Source of the DNA: Oscillospiraceae bacterium
GTDB lineage: Bacteria; Bacillota; Clostridia; Oscillospirales; Ruminococcaceae
Direction of reading: 5' to 3'
Length of the DNA stretch: 64,000 bases
Assembly (NCBI GenBank): GCA_017436575.1
Contig: JAFSCU010000054.1
Coordinates: 1 to 64,000, forward strand
Below the pieces are notes generated by a model that ran no database searches, had not been told where the DNA came from, and saw nothing but the letters and a program-made list of their open reading frames with translations. Shown one piece after another: positions 14,610 through 25,269 of this stretch (position 1 is its first letter; each line of letters opens with the position of its first letter). Position numbers and translations under genes: made by a program.

Positions 14610-14638
14610 TTGACAAATTGATACTACAAGTGTAGTAT
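14610..14638 (+). promoter_or_regulatory. Promoter of the BlaI/M56 operon
   Basis: TTGACA (14610-14615), a 17-bp spacer and TAGTAT (14633-14638) form a strong sigma-A promoter upstream of the repressor gene. The first operator lies inside the spacer and -10 box. Confidence 0.85.
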
Positions 14639-14661
14639 AGAAATAGATACTACATGTGTAG
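14621..14661 (+). promoter_or_regulatory. Two BlaI/MecI-type operators
   Basis: ATACTACAAGTGTAGTAT (14621-14638) is a near-perfect palindrome with the TACA-N2-TGTA core of BlaI/MecI operators and covers the -10 box. A second copy, ATACTACATGTGTAG (14647-14661), has the same core and abuts the ribosome binding site. Binding by the downstream repressor would block its own operon. Confidence 0.85.
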
Positions 14662-14670
14662 GAGGATATT

Positions 14671-15036
14671 ATGTATAAACTGACAGACAGCGAATGGCAG
14701 GTGCTGGAAACACTGTGGCAGGCAGACAGCCTGTTGCTGGGTGAAGTGGTGGACAGCCTTTATGATACTACAAAATGGAGCCGCAACACAGTTCACACCT
14801 ATCTGACCAGAATGGAGAAAAAAGGACTGGTAAAAATAACCCGTGACAGCGAACCGCACAGATATTCACGGCTGGTGACACGTGACGACTGCTCAAAAAA
14901 AGAGAGGGAAAATCTGCTGCACAAAGTTTATGGCGGCAGTGTAGGCGACCTGGTGGCTGCTTTTCTGAAAGAAAGCAAAATCACACCTGAAGAAAAAGCA
15001 AAACTGAATAAACTGCTGGACGATATGGAGGTATAG
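14671..15036 (+). CDS. BlaI/MecI/CopY-family repressor
   Basis: The 121-residue protein has the winged-helix DNA-binding domain of penicillinase repressors (LTDSEWQVLETLWQ, WSRNTVHTYLTRMEKKGLV) and a C-terminal helical dimerisation part. It should repress the operon through the two TACA-N2-TGTA operators. In MecI and BlaI of Staphylococcus aureus the sensor protease pathway cleaves between Asn101 and Phe102 in LVLNF. The corresponding stretch here is LVAAF, so the Asn is replaced by Ala. AGGAGG lies 6 bp before the ATG. The gene ends one base before the M56 gene, whose ribosome binding site lies within its last codons. Confidence 0.92.
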   Translation: MYKLTDSEWQVLETLWQADSLLLGEVVDSLYDTTKWSRNTVHTYLTRMEKKGLVKITRDSEPHRYSRLVTRDDCSKKERENLLHKVYGGSVGDLVAAFLKESKITPEEKAKLNKLLDDMEV

Positions 15037-15037
15037 T

Positions 15038-17080
15038 ATGGGCAATATATGGGGCTTTTTAACCCAGACCATATATGTTTCTTCCATGTCAGTGCTGATT
15101 TTACTGATTAAAATGCTGATGAAAGACAAACTGCCTGCCCGCTGGCAGTATGGTATATGGATTGTGCTGGCAGCCTGTCTGTTCATCCCAGCAGGCAGTG
15201 TGGGCGGATATATAATCCCCCAGTTGCACATATTGCTGGAAACGGCAAAATATTATGTGGAAACAGGTCTGAACTCTGCATACACAGTTGCTGATGTTTC
15301 TGTTTACAATCGTCATATACTGCCTGTTATCAGTGGCAGACCGGCCAGCATTACAGATATGCTGTTTGTTGCATATCTGTGTGGTATAGCTGTTACGCTG
15401 ATAAAATACCTGTATGAGTATATACGACTGGCAAAAATAATTGCCCACAGCCCACAGGCTGACAGCTGTGTACAGCAATCTGTAAAAGACGTGGCAGAAA
15501 ATTACAGTCTGCCTGTATGTGATGTGAAAGCAATCGATGGGCTGCCATCAGCCTTTGTTTTCGGAATCGTAAAACCTGTTCTGGTACTGCCACTTGGAAA
15601 AGGAACAGATGACAAAGTGATATTGCATGAACTTTTGCACCTTAAATACAAAGACCTGTGGCAAAATATTTTCTGGTCAGTTATGAAAGCATTGCACTGG
15701 CCAAACCCATTTTTAAGGTATGTTTTCAAAAGCATAAACAACGATATGGAAAGCCTGCGGGATTACAGGGTTATGGAACTGCTGAAGGGAGAGCAGCGCA
15801 GAGAATACGGCAGAATACTGCTGTCTATGACCAATGAAAAATATCCGTCAGCTTTTGGCACTACATCAATTTCCAACGGCAGCCGTTTTATAAATGAAAG
15901 GATAGAAGCCATAGCCAGATTCAAACTTTATCCCAAAGGAATGGGATTGGTGGCATTGTGTATTATTGCACTGTTGGCACCGCTTACAGTGACCAATGGA
16001 GAAATAAAAAACTTTCCACCGGGCAACTATAACCACAATCCTGATACTTTTACATATAATTATCAGCACTCACGGGCGAGAATGACAAACTGTAAAACTG
16101 TGGCCGGAGCTATAGACACCTATGCAAAAGCCCTGCTGACAGGAAATGAACTGTACAGCCTTGCTGTAAAGCCGGGCAATGTGGAAATCAAAGAATATCA
16201 TCTGGCTGACAAGGTGGATATCAGCGGCAGTTCAGATATGTATTATGTGGTGGACCTGGAGAAAACAGACAGCAAGACATACATTGCAAATCTGCTGTTC
16301 CGTGACTACACCACCAATCTGGAAACACCCGGCGGTGGCGGCAATAAACTGGGATACAGCAATATAACTGTACCTATAAAAATAGTAAAAGAAAATGGCT
16401 GGAAAGTTTATCAGACAGGAAACATTGCATCAAATCTTTCCATAAGAATTATTGGTGACCGGGAATACACCGCCATTGATGTGGATGGACATAAACCCGG
16501 GGACAGATATGAATATATTGCACCTGCCGGTGTGGTAGATATTACTGTGCACAAGGTAAACACTATATCCAATTCATCTGTGCAGTCAGGGTTTATGTTT
16601 TCACAGACAGTGTTTGACCACACACCAAAACCCCACGGGCAATTTGATAACGGATATTATGCGGTAGATATATGCTATACCCCTGCTGATGTTGAAGGTG
16701 TAAAAATTGTAAATTTAAGAGTAAGTACAACAGACAAATCCGCCTCTGCTACTACCCGTCTGACAGAGTATGGCGGCAGTGGCGCAGGTCCTGACAGGCG
16801 GCACCGGTATGTAAATATAAATGCAAATACAGTGAAAGCTACTATCGAACATACTACCTCTGCCGAAAATACTGCGTTTACCGAAATGCAGAAAGAGACA
16901 ATAGCCAATACACTGAATAAATACCATCTGCCTTTTGCCCAGCTGAAATTTACAAAAGACAACTTTGCTTCATTGAAAAAGACAGATAAACTTTATATAT
17001 CTGTAATGGAAAATGGCAGAAAGGTATGTGATGCAACAATAAATCTGAAAGAGGGTAAATTATATGACCAGACAGTTTGA
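15038..17080 (+). CDS. M56 (BlaR1/MecR1-type) membrane metalloprotease with unrecognised sensor domain, copy 1
   Basis: The 680-residue protein has N-terminal membrane helices (about 8-26, 38-58 and 106-125), a cytoplasmic zinc-protease domain with HELLH at 197-201, and another helix at about 303-320. This matches the BlaR1/MecR1 M56 layout. In BlaR1 the next part is a penicillin-binding sensor. Here residues 320-680 do not show a transpeptidase SxxK/SxN/KTG set, so the signal sensed is unknown. By family logic it should trigger inactivation of the BlaI-type repressor encoded just upstream. The following membrane-protein gene overlaps it by 17 bp. A 149-bp block is almost identical to the second copy. 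Confidence 0.88.
   Translation: MGNIWGFLTQTIYVSSMSVLILLIKMLMKDKLPARWQYGIWIVLAACLFIPAGSVGGYIIPQLHILLETAKYYVETGLNSAYTVADVSVYNRHILPVISGRPASITDMLFVAYLCGIAVTLIKYLYEYIRLAKIIAHSPQADSCVQQSVKDVAENYSLPVCDVKAIDGLPSAFVFGIVKPVLVLPLGKGTDDKVILHELLHLKYKDLWQNIFWSVMKALHWPNPFLRYVFKSINNDMESLRDYRVMELLKGEQRREYGRILLSMTNEKYPSAFGTTSISNGSRFINERIEAIARFKLYPKGMGLVALCIIALLAPLTVTNGEIKNFPPGNYNHNPDTFTYNYQHSRARMTNCKTVAGAIDTYAKALLTGNELYSLAVKPGNVEIKEYHLADKVDISGSSDMYYVVDLEKTDSKTYIANLLFRDYTTNLETPGGGGNKLGYSNITVPIKIVKENGWKVYQTGNIASNLSIRIIGDREYTAIDVDGHKPGDRYEYIAPAGVVDITVHKVNTISNSSVQSGFMFSQTVFDHTPKPHGQFDNGYYAVDICYTPADVEGVKIVNLRVSTTDKSASATTRLTEYGGSGAGPDRRHRYVNINANTVKATIEHTTSAENTAFTEMQKETIANTLNKYHLPFAQLKFTKDNFASLKKTDKLYISVMENGRKVCDATINLKEGKLYDQTV
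15743..15891 (+). repeat. Direct repeat, copy 1 (inside first M56 gene)
   Basis: This 149-bp block matches 18331-18479 with about six substitutions, while the flanking parts of the two M56 genes have diverged strongly. It encodes the cytoplasmic segment after the protease motif, from NDMESLRDYRVMELLKG to FGTTS. Confidence 0.9.
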
Positions 17081-17624
17081 CAATGTTATAAGCACTATTG
17101 CCTGGGCTTACGTTATCCTTTGTTTTGATATAAATATAGCCAGGGTAAATCTGTTGCCAAACTGGGTGGCATATATGATGATTTTTGACACTTTGCCTTA
17201 TATAGCTGAAAAACAGCGCAGTGCCGGTCTGTTGAAAAACTTTATAATCTTTCTGGGTGCCACAGATGCTTTGAAATGGCTGCTGAAAATATTTGATGTC
17301 AGCTTTGATATGTATTTTGCCAGCATTTTTCTGACAGTTGTTTATGTATATACTCATTTTCAGCTGTTGACTAATCTGGCTGATATTGCAGCAGAACAAA
17401 GCAGGATATACCACAAAACTATCACCAATGGCCGTAACGTTGCATTGGTGGCATATACAGCAACGATAATTATAAATCAGTTTTTACCGCTTACCTTTGC
17501 TGGTTATGCCGCTGCAACAGTAAATATTACGGCACAGATTTATCTGGCTTATCATCTGTTTCTGTTTGCAGCCGAACTGGCAGACGAAGAAAACAGCACA
17601 GTTATAGAAAATATGGAGGTGTAA
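17064..17624 (+). CDS. Hypothetical polytopic membrane protein, copy 1
   Basis: The 186-residue protein has about five membrane segments and no recognised family. It shares a layout and motifs with the protein encoded at 19553-20095 (for example NLLPNWVAYMMIF versus DFLPDWVGYIMIY, then VVYVYTHFQLLTNL versus VVYIYLNFQLMTDI). Each copy directly follows an M56 protease gene and overlaps its end, so the pair probably works as a unit in the membrane. The C-terminus (ENMEV) repeats the end of the BlaI gene, part of the duplicated junction. GAGGG precedes the ATG. Confidence 0.75.
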   Translation: MTRQFDNVISTIAWAYVILCFDINIARVNLLPNWVAYMMIFDTLPYIAEKQRSAGLLKNFIIFLGATDALKWLLKIFDVSFDMYFASIFLTVVYVYTHFQLLTNLADIAAEQSRIYHKTITNGRNVALVAYTATIIINQFLPLTFAGYAAATVNITAQIYLAYHLFLFAAELADEENSTVIENMEV

Positions 17625-17625
17625 T

Positions 17626-19563
17626 ATGACCAATATATGGAGTTTTGCAGTACAGACAGCAGAAGTCAGTGTTATGGCGGCTATAATACTGCTTCTGAAA
17701 ACCATAATGAAAGACAAACTGTCACCACGATGGCAGTATGGTGTGTGGTTGTGCCTGGGGCGGAGAATACTGATACCTGTAGGCAGTGGCAACCGCTATA
17801 TATTCCGATATATACAGGTGTATCTGCAGGCATGTAAGACACTGGCAGAACAAAAACTGCATTCCGCCTTTACTGATGCCGGTAAAGTGGTGCACAGCAC
17901 ATCCATCTTCCCTGCCCGGACAGGCAAACCTTACAGCATAACCGACTGGATGTTTGTAATTTATATCGCGGGAGTAATTATACTTCTGGCAAAATATATT
18001 ATCAGTTATTTTTCACTGCAAAATATAATTGTAAAAGCCAATAACGCCCCCGAAGAAACTGTGCAACAGATAAATTGTGTTGCACAGAATTACAGTTTGA
18101 AAAGCTGTGAAGCAAGAACAGTAAAGGGGCTGACCTCTGCATTTGTGTTCGGTATAGCAAAACCTGTACTGGTTCTGCCGGAAGGCATACGGACAGATGA
18201 CAAGGTAATTCTTCACGAACTTTTACATCTGAAATACAGGGATTTATGGCAAAAAGTAATTTGGTCGCTGCTGCGTGTAATTCACTGGCCAAACCTGTTT
18301 TTGCAGTATTGCTTTGGGATTATAAACAATGATATGGAAAGCCTGCGGGATTACAGGGTTATGGAACTGCTGAAGGGTGAACAGCGCAGAGAATACGGCA
18401 GAATACTGCTGTCTATGACCAATGAAAAATATCCGTCCGCTTTTGGCACCACATCTGTTTCCAACGGCAGCCGTTTTATCAGCGAAAGAATAAAAACAAT
18501 TGCCCGTTTCAAAAAATATCCGCAGGGTATGGGTGTGGTCTCCGTGTGTATCATATTTATGATGACACCGCTGATTGCCCGCGGCCGGGGTTCACCTGAA
18601 AAAATAAATCATATAAACCTTGCCAGACAGGGTGTTACAGGCCAGATGCAGTATGAAGAATACCGAATGGCACAGCTGTCCACACCGGCGGCCGCAATAG
18701 ATGCCTGGGCAAAAATGATTACCGGCTGTGGTGAAGATGCCATAAAACTGGCGGTTACCCCTTATGATATAAAAGCAGAAAACTATGCCCTGCCGGATAT
18801 GGATAAAATACATCTTTTTGAAAGCGAAATGCTGTATTTTGTAGTGGATTTTCAGCAAAACAGCCACAATACCTGCACTGCAAAACTGATGCTGAAAGAT
18901 TATTACCACGGCAAAAACAAAGAAGATTATGGCACAAATTTTTATCTGATACCAATTACCCTGACTTATCAGGACGGCTGGAAGGTTTATCAGTCAGGAG
19001 ATTTTACCCATCACAAGCTTGAAGGTATTATAGACAACACCTGCAGCCCACCGCCAACCGATGATTACACCGGCGGTGTACAGGTGGAATATACCACTGA
19101 CTATGGCACTGTAAAGATAAATGCCGACAACATCAGCTGGAATGATACTGTGGACAACAATATGTATGTTTATCCTTATACCCGGTTTTCGTCATCAAGA
19201 CTGGATATTCTGACCACATTTACAATGAACGAAAACTGTGACAGTCACCCCAATATTGCCGTCACTGTGGCGGGGCTGGAAAACAGCGCAGACTATAATG
19301 ATTATGACAATGAAATTAAACAGTATCTGGGTCAGGGCGAAATAAGCGGCAGCAGTACAGGCGACTATGGCGGTTACAGCTTTGTAAATGTGCCTATGGA
19401 CAGAGCCACCACTTCCTACGGAAGAATTATCCGCAACAGCCTTGCAAGAGAAACAGAAGATTTCCGGCTGCCGGGTGCCCTGCAGATAGATATATGGCTG
19501 GGGAACCAAAAAGCAGACAGCCGGGTGGTAAATTTAAAAACAGGTGATATACATGACAAATGA
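17626..19563 (+). CDS. M56 (BlaR1/MecR1-type) membrane metalloprotease with unrecognised sensor domain, copy 2
   Basis: The 645-residue paralogue of the protein at 15038-17080 has HELLH at the same position (197-201), the same helix layout and a divergent C-terminal domain beyond about residue 320. The N-termini align closely (TNIW, MKDKLSPRWQYGVW). The extracytoplasmic domain is the most divergent part and shows no penicillin-binding motifs, which suggests the two proteases sense different ligands. The ribosome binding site region copies the one before copy 1. The next membrane-protein gene overlaps its 3' end. Confidence 0.88.
   Translation: MTNIWSFAVQTAEVSVMAAIILLLKTIMKDKLSPRWQYGVWLCLGRRILIPVGSGNRYIFRYIQVYLQACKTLAEQKLHSAFTDAGKVVHSTSIFPARTGKPYSITDWMFVIYIAGVIILLAKYIISYFSLQNIIVKANNAPEETVQQINCVAQNYSLKSCEARTVKGLTSAFVFGIAKPVLVLPEGIRTDDKVILHELLHLKYRDLWQKVIWSLLRVIHWPNLFLQYCFGIINNDMESLRDYRVMELLKGEQRREYGRILLSMTNEKYPSAFGTTSVSNGSRFISERIKTIARFKKYPQGMGVVSVCIIFMMTPLIARGRGSPEKINHINLARQGVTGQMQYEEYRMAQLSTPAAAIDAWAKMITGCGEDAIKLAVTPYDIKAENYALPDMDKIHLFESEMLYFVVDFQQNSHNTCTAKLMLKDYYHGKNKEDYGTNFYLIPITLTYQDGWKVYQSGDFTHHKLEGIIDNTCSPPPTDDYTGGVQVEYTTDYGTVKINADNISWNDTVDNNMYVYPYTRFSSSRLDILTTFTMNENCDSHPNIAVTVAGLENSADYNDYDNEIKQYLGQGEISGSSTGDYGGYSFVNVPMDRATTSYGRIIRNSLARETEDFRLPGALQIDIWLGNQKADSRVVNLKTGDIHDK
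18331..18479 (+). repeat. Direct repeat, copy 2 (inside second M56 gene)
   Basis: Second copy of the 149-bp block at 15743-15891, with about six base differences. The identity is far above that of the surrounding sequence. Confidence 0.9.
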
Positions 19564-20095
19564 TTATTCAAAAGCTGTGAAACATGTGGCATGGGCCATG
19601 CTGCTGGGTACATTTCACATAACTGTGTCCGGTCTGGATTTCTTGCCTGACTGGGTGGGCTATATTATGATTTACAAAGCTTTGACCCCCATCAGCAGAT
19701 ACCGGCCAACTGCAAATCTGCTGAAACCGTTTGCCGCTGTGCTGGTGGTTTTTGAACTTGTAAACCGGGTTATGAAACTGTTTGGAATGTCTGTAGCTTT
19801 GTATGCTATAAACCTGATAATTGCAGTTGTTTATATTTATCTCAACTTTCAGCTGATGACAGACATTTATCACACTGCACAATTATTCAATATGAACAGC
19901 GGTCACTTTATACCTGTATTGAGAAATATAACCACCGTGACATACGCAATGGTATTTGTGGTAAGCAATGCAGGCGGTCACCAATATGTAATAATAGCTG
20001 CCGCTGCGGTGAATATAGTGATGAAACTGGCACTGATTGTTCATCTGCTGGGCCACAGCAACGATGCCGGGCAGAGAGATATGAAAATGCAATAA
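19553..20095 (+). CDS. Hypothetical polytopic membrane protein, copy 2
   Basis: The 180-residue protein has about five membrane segments and is a paralogue of the product of 17064-17624. The ATG at 19553 is preferred because CAGGTG lies 7 bp before it and the N-terminus (MTNDYSKAVKHVAWA) then aligns with copy 1 (MTRQFDNVISTIAWA). A GTG nine bases earlier is in frame but poorly placed. The gene overlaps the preceding M56 gene by 11 bp and ends the operon before a terminator. No function is known. Confidence 0.75.
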   Translation: MTNDYSKAVKHVAWAMLLGTFHITVSGLDFLPDWVGYIMIYKALTPISRYRPTANLLKPFAAVLVVFELVNRVMKLFGMSVALYAINLIIAVVYIYLNFQLMTDIYHTAQLFNMNSGHFIPVLRNITTVTYAMVFVVSNAGGHQYVIIAAAAVNIVMKLALIVHLLGHSNDAGQRDMKMQ

Positions 20096-20098
20096 AAA

Positions 20099-20126
20099 AT
20101 ACGGAATGGTTTTTCCCATTCCGTAT
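20099..20126 (+). terminator. Terminator of the BlaI/M56 operon
   Basis: ATACGGAATGG, a T-rich loop and CCATTCCGTAT form an 11-bp stem followed by ATATTTTTATC. It lies 3 bp after the last stop codon and may also end the convergent nucleoside hydrolase transcript. Confidence 0.85.
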
Positions 20127-23511: not shown

Positions 23512-24069
23512 ATGATGAAATGTTCAAAATGCGGCTATGAAAACCTGCTGAAAGCCAACTATTGCTATAAATGCGGCAACCAGTTCACTCAACAGGAAAA
23601 GGATGCCGCCAAAGAAAAAGCACTTATCGGCAAAATCGAAAAAGCAGAAGAAGCCAAAGGAAAATTTGATAAAATAAAAGACATACTGACTTTAAGTTTT
23701 ATCACAGACAACCTGTATGTAAAAATTGCGCTGATTATCCTGCCTCTTGTTATAAGTCTGCTGTTTGGCGGCGGCCCGAAGAGTAATGATATAATGATTT
23801 TAAACAGCGATGGATACGATATTTATTACAACACCGACACCGATGAATATTTTCTGGATTTATCAGGAGAATCTGCCCAGCTGAAAGTATCCGTTCCATC
23901 TGATACAATGTATATTGTCTTTTCATACATATCACCTTATGGCTATACAGATGTGGACTCCTATGAATTAAATGAAAACATAGTTGTTCAGTATCAGTCC
24001 AGCGGTAAATATGAACTGAAGGCTGTTACAAAAACTGGGGATGCCTATCTGACATTCTGCACAGTTTAA
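23512..24069 (+). CDS. Zinc-ribbon membrane protein
   Basis: The 185-residue protein starts with a treble-clef type zinc ribbon, CSKCGYENLLKANYCYKCG, with two CxxC pairs. A charged Lys/Glu helix follows, then one membrane helix (about 70-87, ALIILPLVISLLFGGG) and a beta-rich C-terminal domain of about 95 residues. The ribbon should face the cytoplasm and the C-terminal domain the outside. The two adjacent ATG codons are both possible starts. The next gene, 12 bp downstream, has the same architecture. Confidence 0.75.
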   Translation: MMKCSKCGYENLLKANYCYKCGNQFTQQEKDAAKEKALIGKIEKAEEAKGKFDKIKDILTLSFITDNLYVKIALIILPLVISLLFGGGPKSNDIMILNSDGYDIYYNTDTDEYFLDLSGESAQLKVSVPSDTMYIVFSYISPYGYTDVDSYELNENIVVQYQSSGKYELKAVTKTGDAYLTFCTV

Positions 24070-24081
24070 GGAGGTGCTGTT

Positions 24082-25269
24082 ATGGAAAACAAAAACGTAT
24101 ATTGCATCCTTTGCGGTGCTGAAAACAATCCGCAGGCAAAATTCTGCACAAAATGTGGTCAGCCTATGGAGCAGAAAGATAATGACATTGCTACCTATCT
24201 TTCAGATAAAGCCAAAGAAAAAGTAAAAGAAACTGTTACCGACAAAGCGCAAAATGCTTTTCTGGCTTTACTTGAAAAGTTTGTAAATTCATACCTTTAT
24301 GGTGTTGTACTTTCCATATCAATAGTTATGGCCGCCACAACAGTTTTTGCAGGCGGTGGCTCATCGGATATTACAGAGTTTGACAATTCCAACCTGCTGT
24401 TTGAGCCAAATATGGAAGTAATCCGCATAGATACAGATCTGATGAGACTGAGCGCCAGTTACTATTATGGTGTTGCATACGATGAAAACCAGAATATTAT
24501 AGGCTCATATGTATGTGAAAACTGGCCAGGACAGCATGACTACTCCCCGTATCAGGTGAGAATATATGATGAAAACGACAATTTGATTGCTGATGAAACA
24601 GATATGGATGAACAGATGAGATGTATTCCACTTAAAAATCTGAATTGTCGTGTAGAAATATCTGAACCATATGTGGATTACATTCAGCGCACAGTAACCA
24701 CATTCTATCCTACCGGTGAAGTAAAAAACCAGGCAACTTACTATGGCGAAGATAATATACACAATGAAATTTACTATAAATCAGGAGCAATAAAAGAAAA
24801 AAGTAATACTGTGAAAACCGTTTCAGGAGATATAGAATTTGATTCATCCACTTATAACGAAAACGGTGAGCTGACAGGTATGTATTCTGAAGTCAACGGT
24901 AAACCTGACCGGCGCAGGGAAATAGTATATGGCGCTAATTACGAATACACATATATGTACGATTATGATGAATCCGGTGCAGAATTTATGACCAATCAGT
25001 ATGTGATTGAATATGATGAAAACGGCAGAGAAATCAAACGTGGCTGGCTTAATGCCGATGGCTCTCCTGATGAAGTCTCTTATATGACATACTATGACAG
25101 CGGTGCGATAAAAACATCTGACTCATATTCTGGCGAAATACTGACACATCACAGAGATTATGCTGAAGATGGAAGCAATACACTATATTATTATAGCGCT
25201 GGTGAAGTATATCACATTATATATTATGATGCTAACGGCAGTATAATAAAAGAAGAAATAATCAATTAA
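24082..25269 (+). CDS. Zinc-ribbon membrane protein with YwqK/MORN-like C-terminal repeats
   Basis: The 395-residue protein has an N-terminal zinc ribbon (CILCGAENNPQAKFCTKCG), a charged helix, one membrane segment (about 73-92) and a long extracytoplasmic region. From about residue 195 the sequence carries repeated Y-(D/S)xGxxK units (YPTGEVKNQ, YKSGAIKEK, YDENGREIKRG, YDSGAIKTS, YDANGSIIKE), as in YwqK-type and MORN-like beta-repeat proteins. The repeats probably form an extended sheet for protein or surface contact. Function is unknown. GGAGG precedes the ATG, and a terminator follows. Confidence 0.75.
   Translation: MENKNVYCILCGAENNPQAKFCTKCGQPMEQKDNDIATYLSDKAKEKVKETVTDKAQNAFLALLEKFVNSYLYGVVLSISIVMAATTVFAGGGSSDITEFDNSNLLFEPNMEVIRIDTDLMRLSASYYYGVAYDENQNIIGSYVCENWPGQHDYSPYQVRIYDENDNLIADETDMDEQMRCIPLKNLNCRVEISEPYVDYIQRTVTTFYPTGEVKNQATYYGEDNIHNEIYYKSGAIKEKSNTVKTVSGDIEFDSSTYNENGELTGMYSEVNGKPDRRREIVYGANYEYTYMYDYDESGAEFMTNQYVIEYDENGREIKRGWLNADGSPDEVSYMTYYDSGAIKTSDSYSGEILTHHRDYAEDGSNTLYYYSAGEVYHIIYYDANGSIIKEEIIN

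Follow-up and report, generated by a model that had tools for sequence, protein, structure and literature searches.

What is sensed, and what is regulated, by an operon in which a single BlaI-type repressor is accompanied by two BlaR1-type membrane proteases? This question is raised by positions 14610-20126 of the stretch of DNA analysed here (termed the window), which comprises the first 64,000 nucleotides of contig JAFSCU010000054.1 of an Oscillospiraceae bacterium (assembly GCA_017436575.1). The answer favoured here, with somewhat better than even confidence, is an autoregulated proteolytic switch of the BlaI/BlaR1 type that operates without beta-lactam sensing and in which one repressor serves two receptors (the M56 proteases M56-1 and M56-2), the regulated membrane product being a small protein, termed here mem, encoded behind each of them. 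Because BlaI/BlaR1 biology is established, the logic of such a switch can be spelled out: BlaI would bind both of its operators and repress its own operon; the two proteases, with their different extracytoplasmic domains (ectodomains), would reside in the membrane, where either could detect a signal of its own--probably an envelope or extracellular cue--so that the two inputs would combine by OR logic; the cytosolic zinc protease of either would then cut BlaI before residue F98, whereupon the operon would be derepressed; and mem, as the induction product other than the switch itself, would be the best candidate for the response, either as a membrane-level protector or as a partner that tunes the protease.

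The region forms one transcription unit on the + strand, running from a promoter and two operators through BlaI, M56-1, mem1, M56-2 and mem2 to a terminator (Table 1). An earlier note on this DNA, made from the sequence alone, had described one repressor followed by a duplicated M56/mem unit; the genes indeed lie where it placed them, all on the + strand, with Pfam matches to BlaI and to both M56 proteins and with the motif HELLH at residues 197-201 of each protease. Both proteases contain the M56 domain (PF05569) with its HEXXH motif and a downstream Glu, and the structure model of M56-1 (a comparison made for M56-1 only) matches the BlaR1 fold. BlaI and M56-1 are spaced by a single base, as are mem1 and M56-2, and each mem start lies within the preceding M56 gene. 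M56-1 and M56-2 are 42% identical, and mem1 and mem2 28%; because the M56 copies are no more alike than this, an assembly error that placed a single gene twice cannot account for the tandem. The window's genome (2.1 Mb) holds seven M56 and six BlaI matches, and among the stretches around its six BlaI-M56 loci only the window operon contains two M56 genes, or any mem at all, the five other loci being without it.

Table 1. Features of the operon, in window coordinates
Feature	Position	Strand	Details
Sigma-70-like promoter TTGACA-17-TAGTAT	14610-14638	+	10/12 consensus matches
BlaI operator 1 (predicted)	14623-14636	.	palindrome ACTACA-N2-TGTAG; overlaps spacer and -10
BlaI operator 2 (predicted)	14649-14662	.	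palindrome ACTACA-N2-TGTAG; between -10 and ribosome site
BlaI-family repressor	14671-15036	+	121 aa; PF03965, E 2.3e-29
M56-1, BlaR1-family membrane zinc protease	15038-17080	+	680 aa; PF05569, E 3.7e-36; H197, E198, H201, E238
Homogenised tract in M56-1	15743-15889	+	codons 236-284, versus M56-2
M56-1 ectodomain	16010-17077	+	predicted NTF2-like (~353-468) and beta-sandwich (~488-679); weak scores
mem1, polytopic membrane protein	17064-17624	+	186 aa; start inside M56-1, before the M56-1 stop
mem1 3' end ENMEV-stop	17607-17624	+	resembles BlaI end DDMEV-stop; probable relic of lost second BlaI
M56-2, second BlaR1-family protease	17626-19563	+	645 aa; PF05569, E 6.3e-34; catalytic residues intact
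Homogenised tract in M56-2	18331-18477	+	versus M56-1
M56-2 ectodomain (type B)	18598-19560	+	sequence comparison
mem2, polytopic membrane protein	19553-20095	+	180 aa; alternative GTG start 19544
Intrinsic terminator	20099-20126	+	11-pair stem; closes operon

The repressor end of the switch is the most clearly defined. The winged-helix Penicillinase_R domain (PF03965) of BlaI scores 102.5 bits against a cut-off of 22.6, and the protein carries a predicted site for cleavage before F98, which by profile offset is aligned to Phe102, the P1' residue of the S. aureus BlaI cleavage site (PMC9834060). Operators of the TACA-N2-TGTA type are present at BlaI's own promoter, where two palindromes start at 14623 and 14649; three relatives from the same genus (G010, G015 and G001) have paired operators in the same places within the same promoter layout. 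The exact double operator occurs at two places in the 2.1 Mb genome, before the window operon and before another BlaI-M56 pair, against none for a reversed-pattern control, and is therefore in excess of chance. Across 11 genomes it is matched in eight, at 12 places, of which 11 precede BlaI-M56 genes and one does not; the single match of the reversed control falls in the genome that holds this one exception. Among the best 80 of 163 related loci (described below), two exact operators precede BlaI in 70, one in seven and none in three, and 147 of the 157 exact operator cores within the 847,035 bases of these loci fall at BlaI promoters.

Relaxing the pattern to one mismatch on both strands gives 31 matches in the window's own genome, versus 127 for the reversed control. 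Thirty of the 31 were classified by reading frame (C54:32186 was left out): these fall at the window promoter, at the BlaI-M56 promoter on contig C49, inside reading frames--including the one other exact match, within a gene that we take to be radC-like--or, in two cases, before other genes. These two, C47:34004-34016 (L081; before a 230-residue frame) and C50:12290-12302 (L084; before a presumably dihydrofolate-reductase-like gene), are single, mismatched sites and were taken as chance. Within the limits of these operator patterns, neither the own-genome scan nor the 11-genome double-operator scan found a convincing target promoter outside BlaI-M56 loci. As far as the patterns searched can reveal, then, the clearly visible regulon would be the operon itself, which agrees with the earlier proposal that the sensors and their membrane proteins are the only clearly regulated products.

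The sensory end of the switch departs from BlaR1. The whole-protein model of M56-1 gave an ectodomain of low confidence, and the ectodomain was remodelled alone; that prediction tentatively suggests, with weak scores, an NTF2-like domain and a beta-sandwich in M56-1. (An ectodomain profile run against Protein Data Bank sequences gave one match, E 0.73, which was taken as chance.) That these are nevertheless true beta-lactam receptors with a diverged sensor domain is hardly credible. Their protease half does belong to the BlaR1 family, and M56-2 holds the plain motifs SxxK (323), SxN (413 or 504) and KTG (638) in that order; but SxxK is found where the chain leaves the membrane and KTG only five residues before the C-terminus, a placing expected by chance, and neither occurs at the aligned positions of the same-type protein of G001. 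Moreover, a motif search found no KTG-type motif in M56-1; none of 48 aligned ectodomains matches a transpeptidase family of Pfam; and the NCBIfam BlaR1 models (NF000326 and relatives) cover only residues ~10-318, at 98.1 and 97.3 bits versus a cut-off of 400. (The 48-row ectodomain alignment, A7, and the 61-row mem alignment, A6, used below are both hand-picked subsets.) The earlier statement that penicillin-binding motifs are lacking thus stands for M56-1 and at the level of domain families, while for M56-2 it must be amended to motifs that are present in order with chance-like placing.

A metal sensor is also highly improbable. The precedent would be PetRP (PetR-PetP) of Synechocystis, a copper switch for photosynthesis genes with no beta-lactam role, which demonstrates that pairs of the BlaI/BlaR1 family can sense copper (PMC7896320). 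Against this, the residues conserved at a level of at least 90% outside the membrane helix in the 48 sequences are T, G, A, D, Y and W; no set of His, Cys or Met residues reaches that level across these ectodomains, and no metal transport gene lies within the operon. What the two ectodomains of the window do display is divergence from each other: they are 29% identical in the NTF2 part and 17% in the sandwich part, and domains so strongly diverged would suit two inputs.

A collection of species genomes was scanned with an M56 profile and the best 80 of 163 relatives were kept, so that the counts describe this subfamily; among these, L126-L128 and L187 had contributed to the query alignment itself, and a single isolate is the source of both L147 and L150. 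The relatives include Oscillibacter valericigenes, Clostridium viride, Massilimicrobiota timonensis and Flavonifractor. BlaI lies upstream in 80/80 and mem downstream in 75/80; four of the five remaining loci are on contigs that end at the M56 frame or no more than 33 bases from it, and one (L170) truly lacks mem. The mem start falls between -18 and +8 bases from the M56 stop in 71 of the 75; the choice of starts favoured those close to that stop. G010, G015 and G001 carry one BlaI-M56-mem unit each, and mem occurs in four of the 16 genomes of the genus, some of which are incomplete. Judged from these genomes, the single-copy trio is common in gut Clostridia. The trio is directly followed at L190, L192, L193 and L201 by a further BlaI-M56 pair, which belongs to a different subfamily and has no mem match of its own. 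In the window's genome, the remaining five BlaI-M56 loci (contigs C5, C30, C42, with two, and C49; L052-L056) encode M56 proteins of 374 to 940 aa with unlike C-terminal parts; the 940-aa protein ends, by eye, in an M23/LytM-like segment, which a small adjoining gene also contains.

The mem protein is polytopic and has about 180 residues. Averages of hydropathy and charge across 61 sequences point to roughly six helices and place both termini inside, although the helix count was read from uneven hydropathy peaks. L57, Q100 and T103 are invariant (61/61), with P32 and Y96 in 60/61. Family searches matched mem to no known family, giving scattered weak matches only. Among genomes of the family, 20/297 match mem; of the 20 places that lie outside the window, 17 were retrieved: four are trios, and the 13 others match more weakly and showed neither BlaI nor M56 in the stretch. 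A search of 394 genomes of the order, seeded with the A6 alignment of trio mem proteins, gave 30 loci, which may overlap the 80 M56-seeded ones. The 14 with E of at most 1e-33 (window included) all adjoin this M56 or its ectodomain; the 16 weaker ones have no adjoining M56, except for L233, which lies on the edge of a contig and matches the ectodomain faintly (5.6e-4). Weaker relatives of mem occur in other Clostridia (L113-L125, L232-L247), mostly with no BlaI or M56 in the stretch, and mem may hence represent the regulated part of a wider and still unnamed family of membrane proteins; the neighbours of lower-scoring relatives were inspected for hints of function and gave none that were usable. 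Single loci show further variation. L159:7923-10388 has one BlaI-M56 pair followed by four mem-like genes in a row, a mem-only expansion. At L203:7980-9707 mem continues in one frame into the downstream gene, whose product we take to be a CCA tRNA nucleotidyltransferase; a similar gene directly follows M56 at L170.

Instead of being the output, mem could be part of the sensor, complexed with its own M56 to set a threshold or present a ligand, with the operon a pure signalling module whose real targets lie elsewhere. The close M56-mem junctions suggest a fixed stoichiometry, each window M56 has its own mem where the other BlaI-M56 loci of the genome have none, and the high-scoring mem relatives all adjoin this M56 subfamily. 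This possibility is nonetheless rather doubtful: the operator scans turned up no convincing other target promoter, the second M56 of each of two further tandem loci (L140 and L141) has no mem of its own, L159 sets four mem-like genes against one M56, and within the genus the lineages are mispaired, a type A M56 being combined with a mem2-type protein in G015 and with a mem1-type protein in G010.

This mispairing emerges from two trees. In the M56 tree, M56-1 groups with G015 and G010 (support 100/99) and M56-2 lies beside G001 (88/87); in the mem tree, mem2 groups with G015 (100/99) and mem1 with G010 and G001 (97/86). In G015, accordingly, a type A protease stands beside a partner of the mem2 type, a combination that fits either the loss of genes from an ancestral tandem array or an exchange of genes among species. 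The membrane/protease half of G001 groups with type A (97/95), its joining to M56-2 being rejected (approximately unbiased test, p 0.027), while in the ectodomain tree G001 joins M56-2 at 72/74 only and the alternative stays unrejected (p 0.119); with one half of this domain-swap test significant, it is suggestive only that G001 is a mosaic receptor.

How the tandem arose is hinted at by the junctions, set side by side: the DNA at the end of mem1, aatatggaggtgtaatatg, resembles the end of BlaI before M56-1, gatatggaggtatagtatg, and the ENMEV tail is lacking from mem of the same-genus relatives. Probably, a duplication of the entire BlaI-M56-mem unit was followed by a deletion that left only the last codons of the second BlaI. 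In codons 236-284 (limits set after seeing the codon comparison) the two M56 genes use the identical codon at 43 of 48 same-residue positions versus 112 of 207 in the remainder (Fisher p 2.4e-6). For the nine further pairings, which involve same-genus relatives, this tract gives 24-34 of 42-44; codon identity with G001 is likewise elevated there (p 0.001-0.002). R241 and K250 are present in both copies, versus C241 and E or A at 250 in the three relatives. The tract is read as later gene conversion across the helix of the third zinc ligand and the loop corresponding to the BlaR1 autocleavage loop, which would have kept the shared catalytic part alike while the ectodomains diverged. A bolder elaboration, tentative and on balance unlikely, is that M56-1 and M56-2 form a mixed dimer, a two-input receptor for one repressor whose catalytic and dimer-interface segment is kept alike by conversion; ectodomain modules for different envelope signals would be exchanged within the genus, and mem, a new family, would be an inducible protector or co-receptor.

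Quite improbable is the reading that M56-2 and mem2 are a redundant duplicate heading to decay, contributing dosage or nothing and no second input. In its favour, M56-2 has diverged further than M56-1 in both the alignment and the tree of the genus, and its first membrane segment carries changes. Yet both frames are open, the catalytic residues are intact and the mem2 overlap is kept; an ectodomain similar to that of M56-2 exists in G001 (30% identity over the distal part, versus 18% to M56-1); and the order BlaI-M56-mem-M56 recurs in two of the 80 loci, L140 (Tyzzerella sp. isolate RGIG4201) and L141 (Lachnospiraceae isolate RGIG4233). The two M56 proteins of L140 are sisters (96/94), and those of L141 belong to one clade with the L149 M56 (100/98); therefore tandem sensors probably arose more than once.

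Compared with BlaI-BlaR1 and MecI-MecR1 of S. aureus and B. licheniformis, the window operon shares the repressor family, the operator type, a HEXXH membrane zinc protease of matching fold and the cleavage-site Phe; it differs in having no penicillin-binding ectodomain family and no beta-lactamase or PBP2a gene, in its conserved membrane protein partner and in its two sensors per repressor. The earlier note had assumed a single sensor and a single effector in known systems and had suggested that the present arrangement could be an undescribed one. Neither view is supported: the clo1313_0696 operon of C. thermocellum contains BlaI, two BlaR1s and a hypothetical protein behind paired operators (PMC8457756), PetRP is a pair of this family with no beta-lactam role (PMC7896320), and L140 and L141 also have the order BlaI-M56-mem-M56. 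The C. thermocellum operon, compared here by arrangement and not by subfamily, resembles the window operon in its one BlaI, two BlaR1-like proteases, paired operators and tiny regulon; it differs in that its regulon comprises three operons and was interpreted as a beta-lactam response. PetR-PetP differs in sensing copper, and the part of that paper seen mentions no mem partner. In the open-access literature searched, no description of the BlaI-M56-mem trio was found.

Around the operon, operator 1 is separated by 183 bases from the start of a divergently oriented transporter gene, and zinc-ribbon motifs open two adjoining genes at 23512-25269 of the window, scoring slightly below the curated Pfam cut-off (E 3.8e-5 and 1.7e-5); zinc-ribbon proteins that look similar by eye are encoded upstream of the BlaI-M56 pair at L054.

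BlaI-M56-mem is thus a three-gene signalling operon that is conserved in Clostridia and Erysipelotrichia, many of them from gut samples, and that apparently has no name. It combines a clear switch with a defined operator and a candidate for the output, and in it BlaR1-type proteolytic signalling appears to be reused with another sensor domain. Annotating these M56 proteins as BlaR1 would wrongly imply beta-lactam sensing. The window provides a natural two-sensor version of this operon, in which divergence of the sensors and homogenisation of the catalytic tract can be observed side by side.
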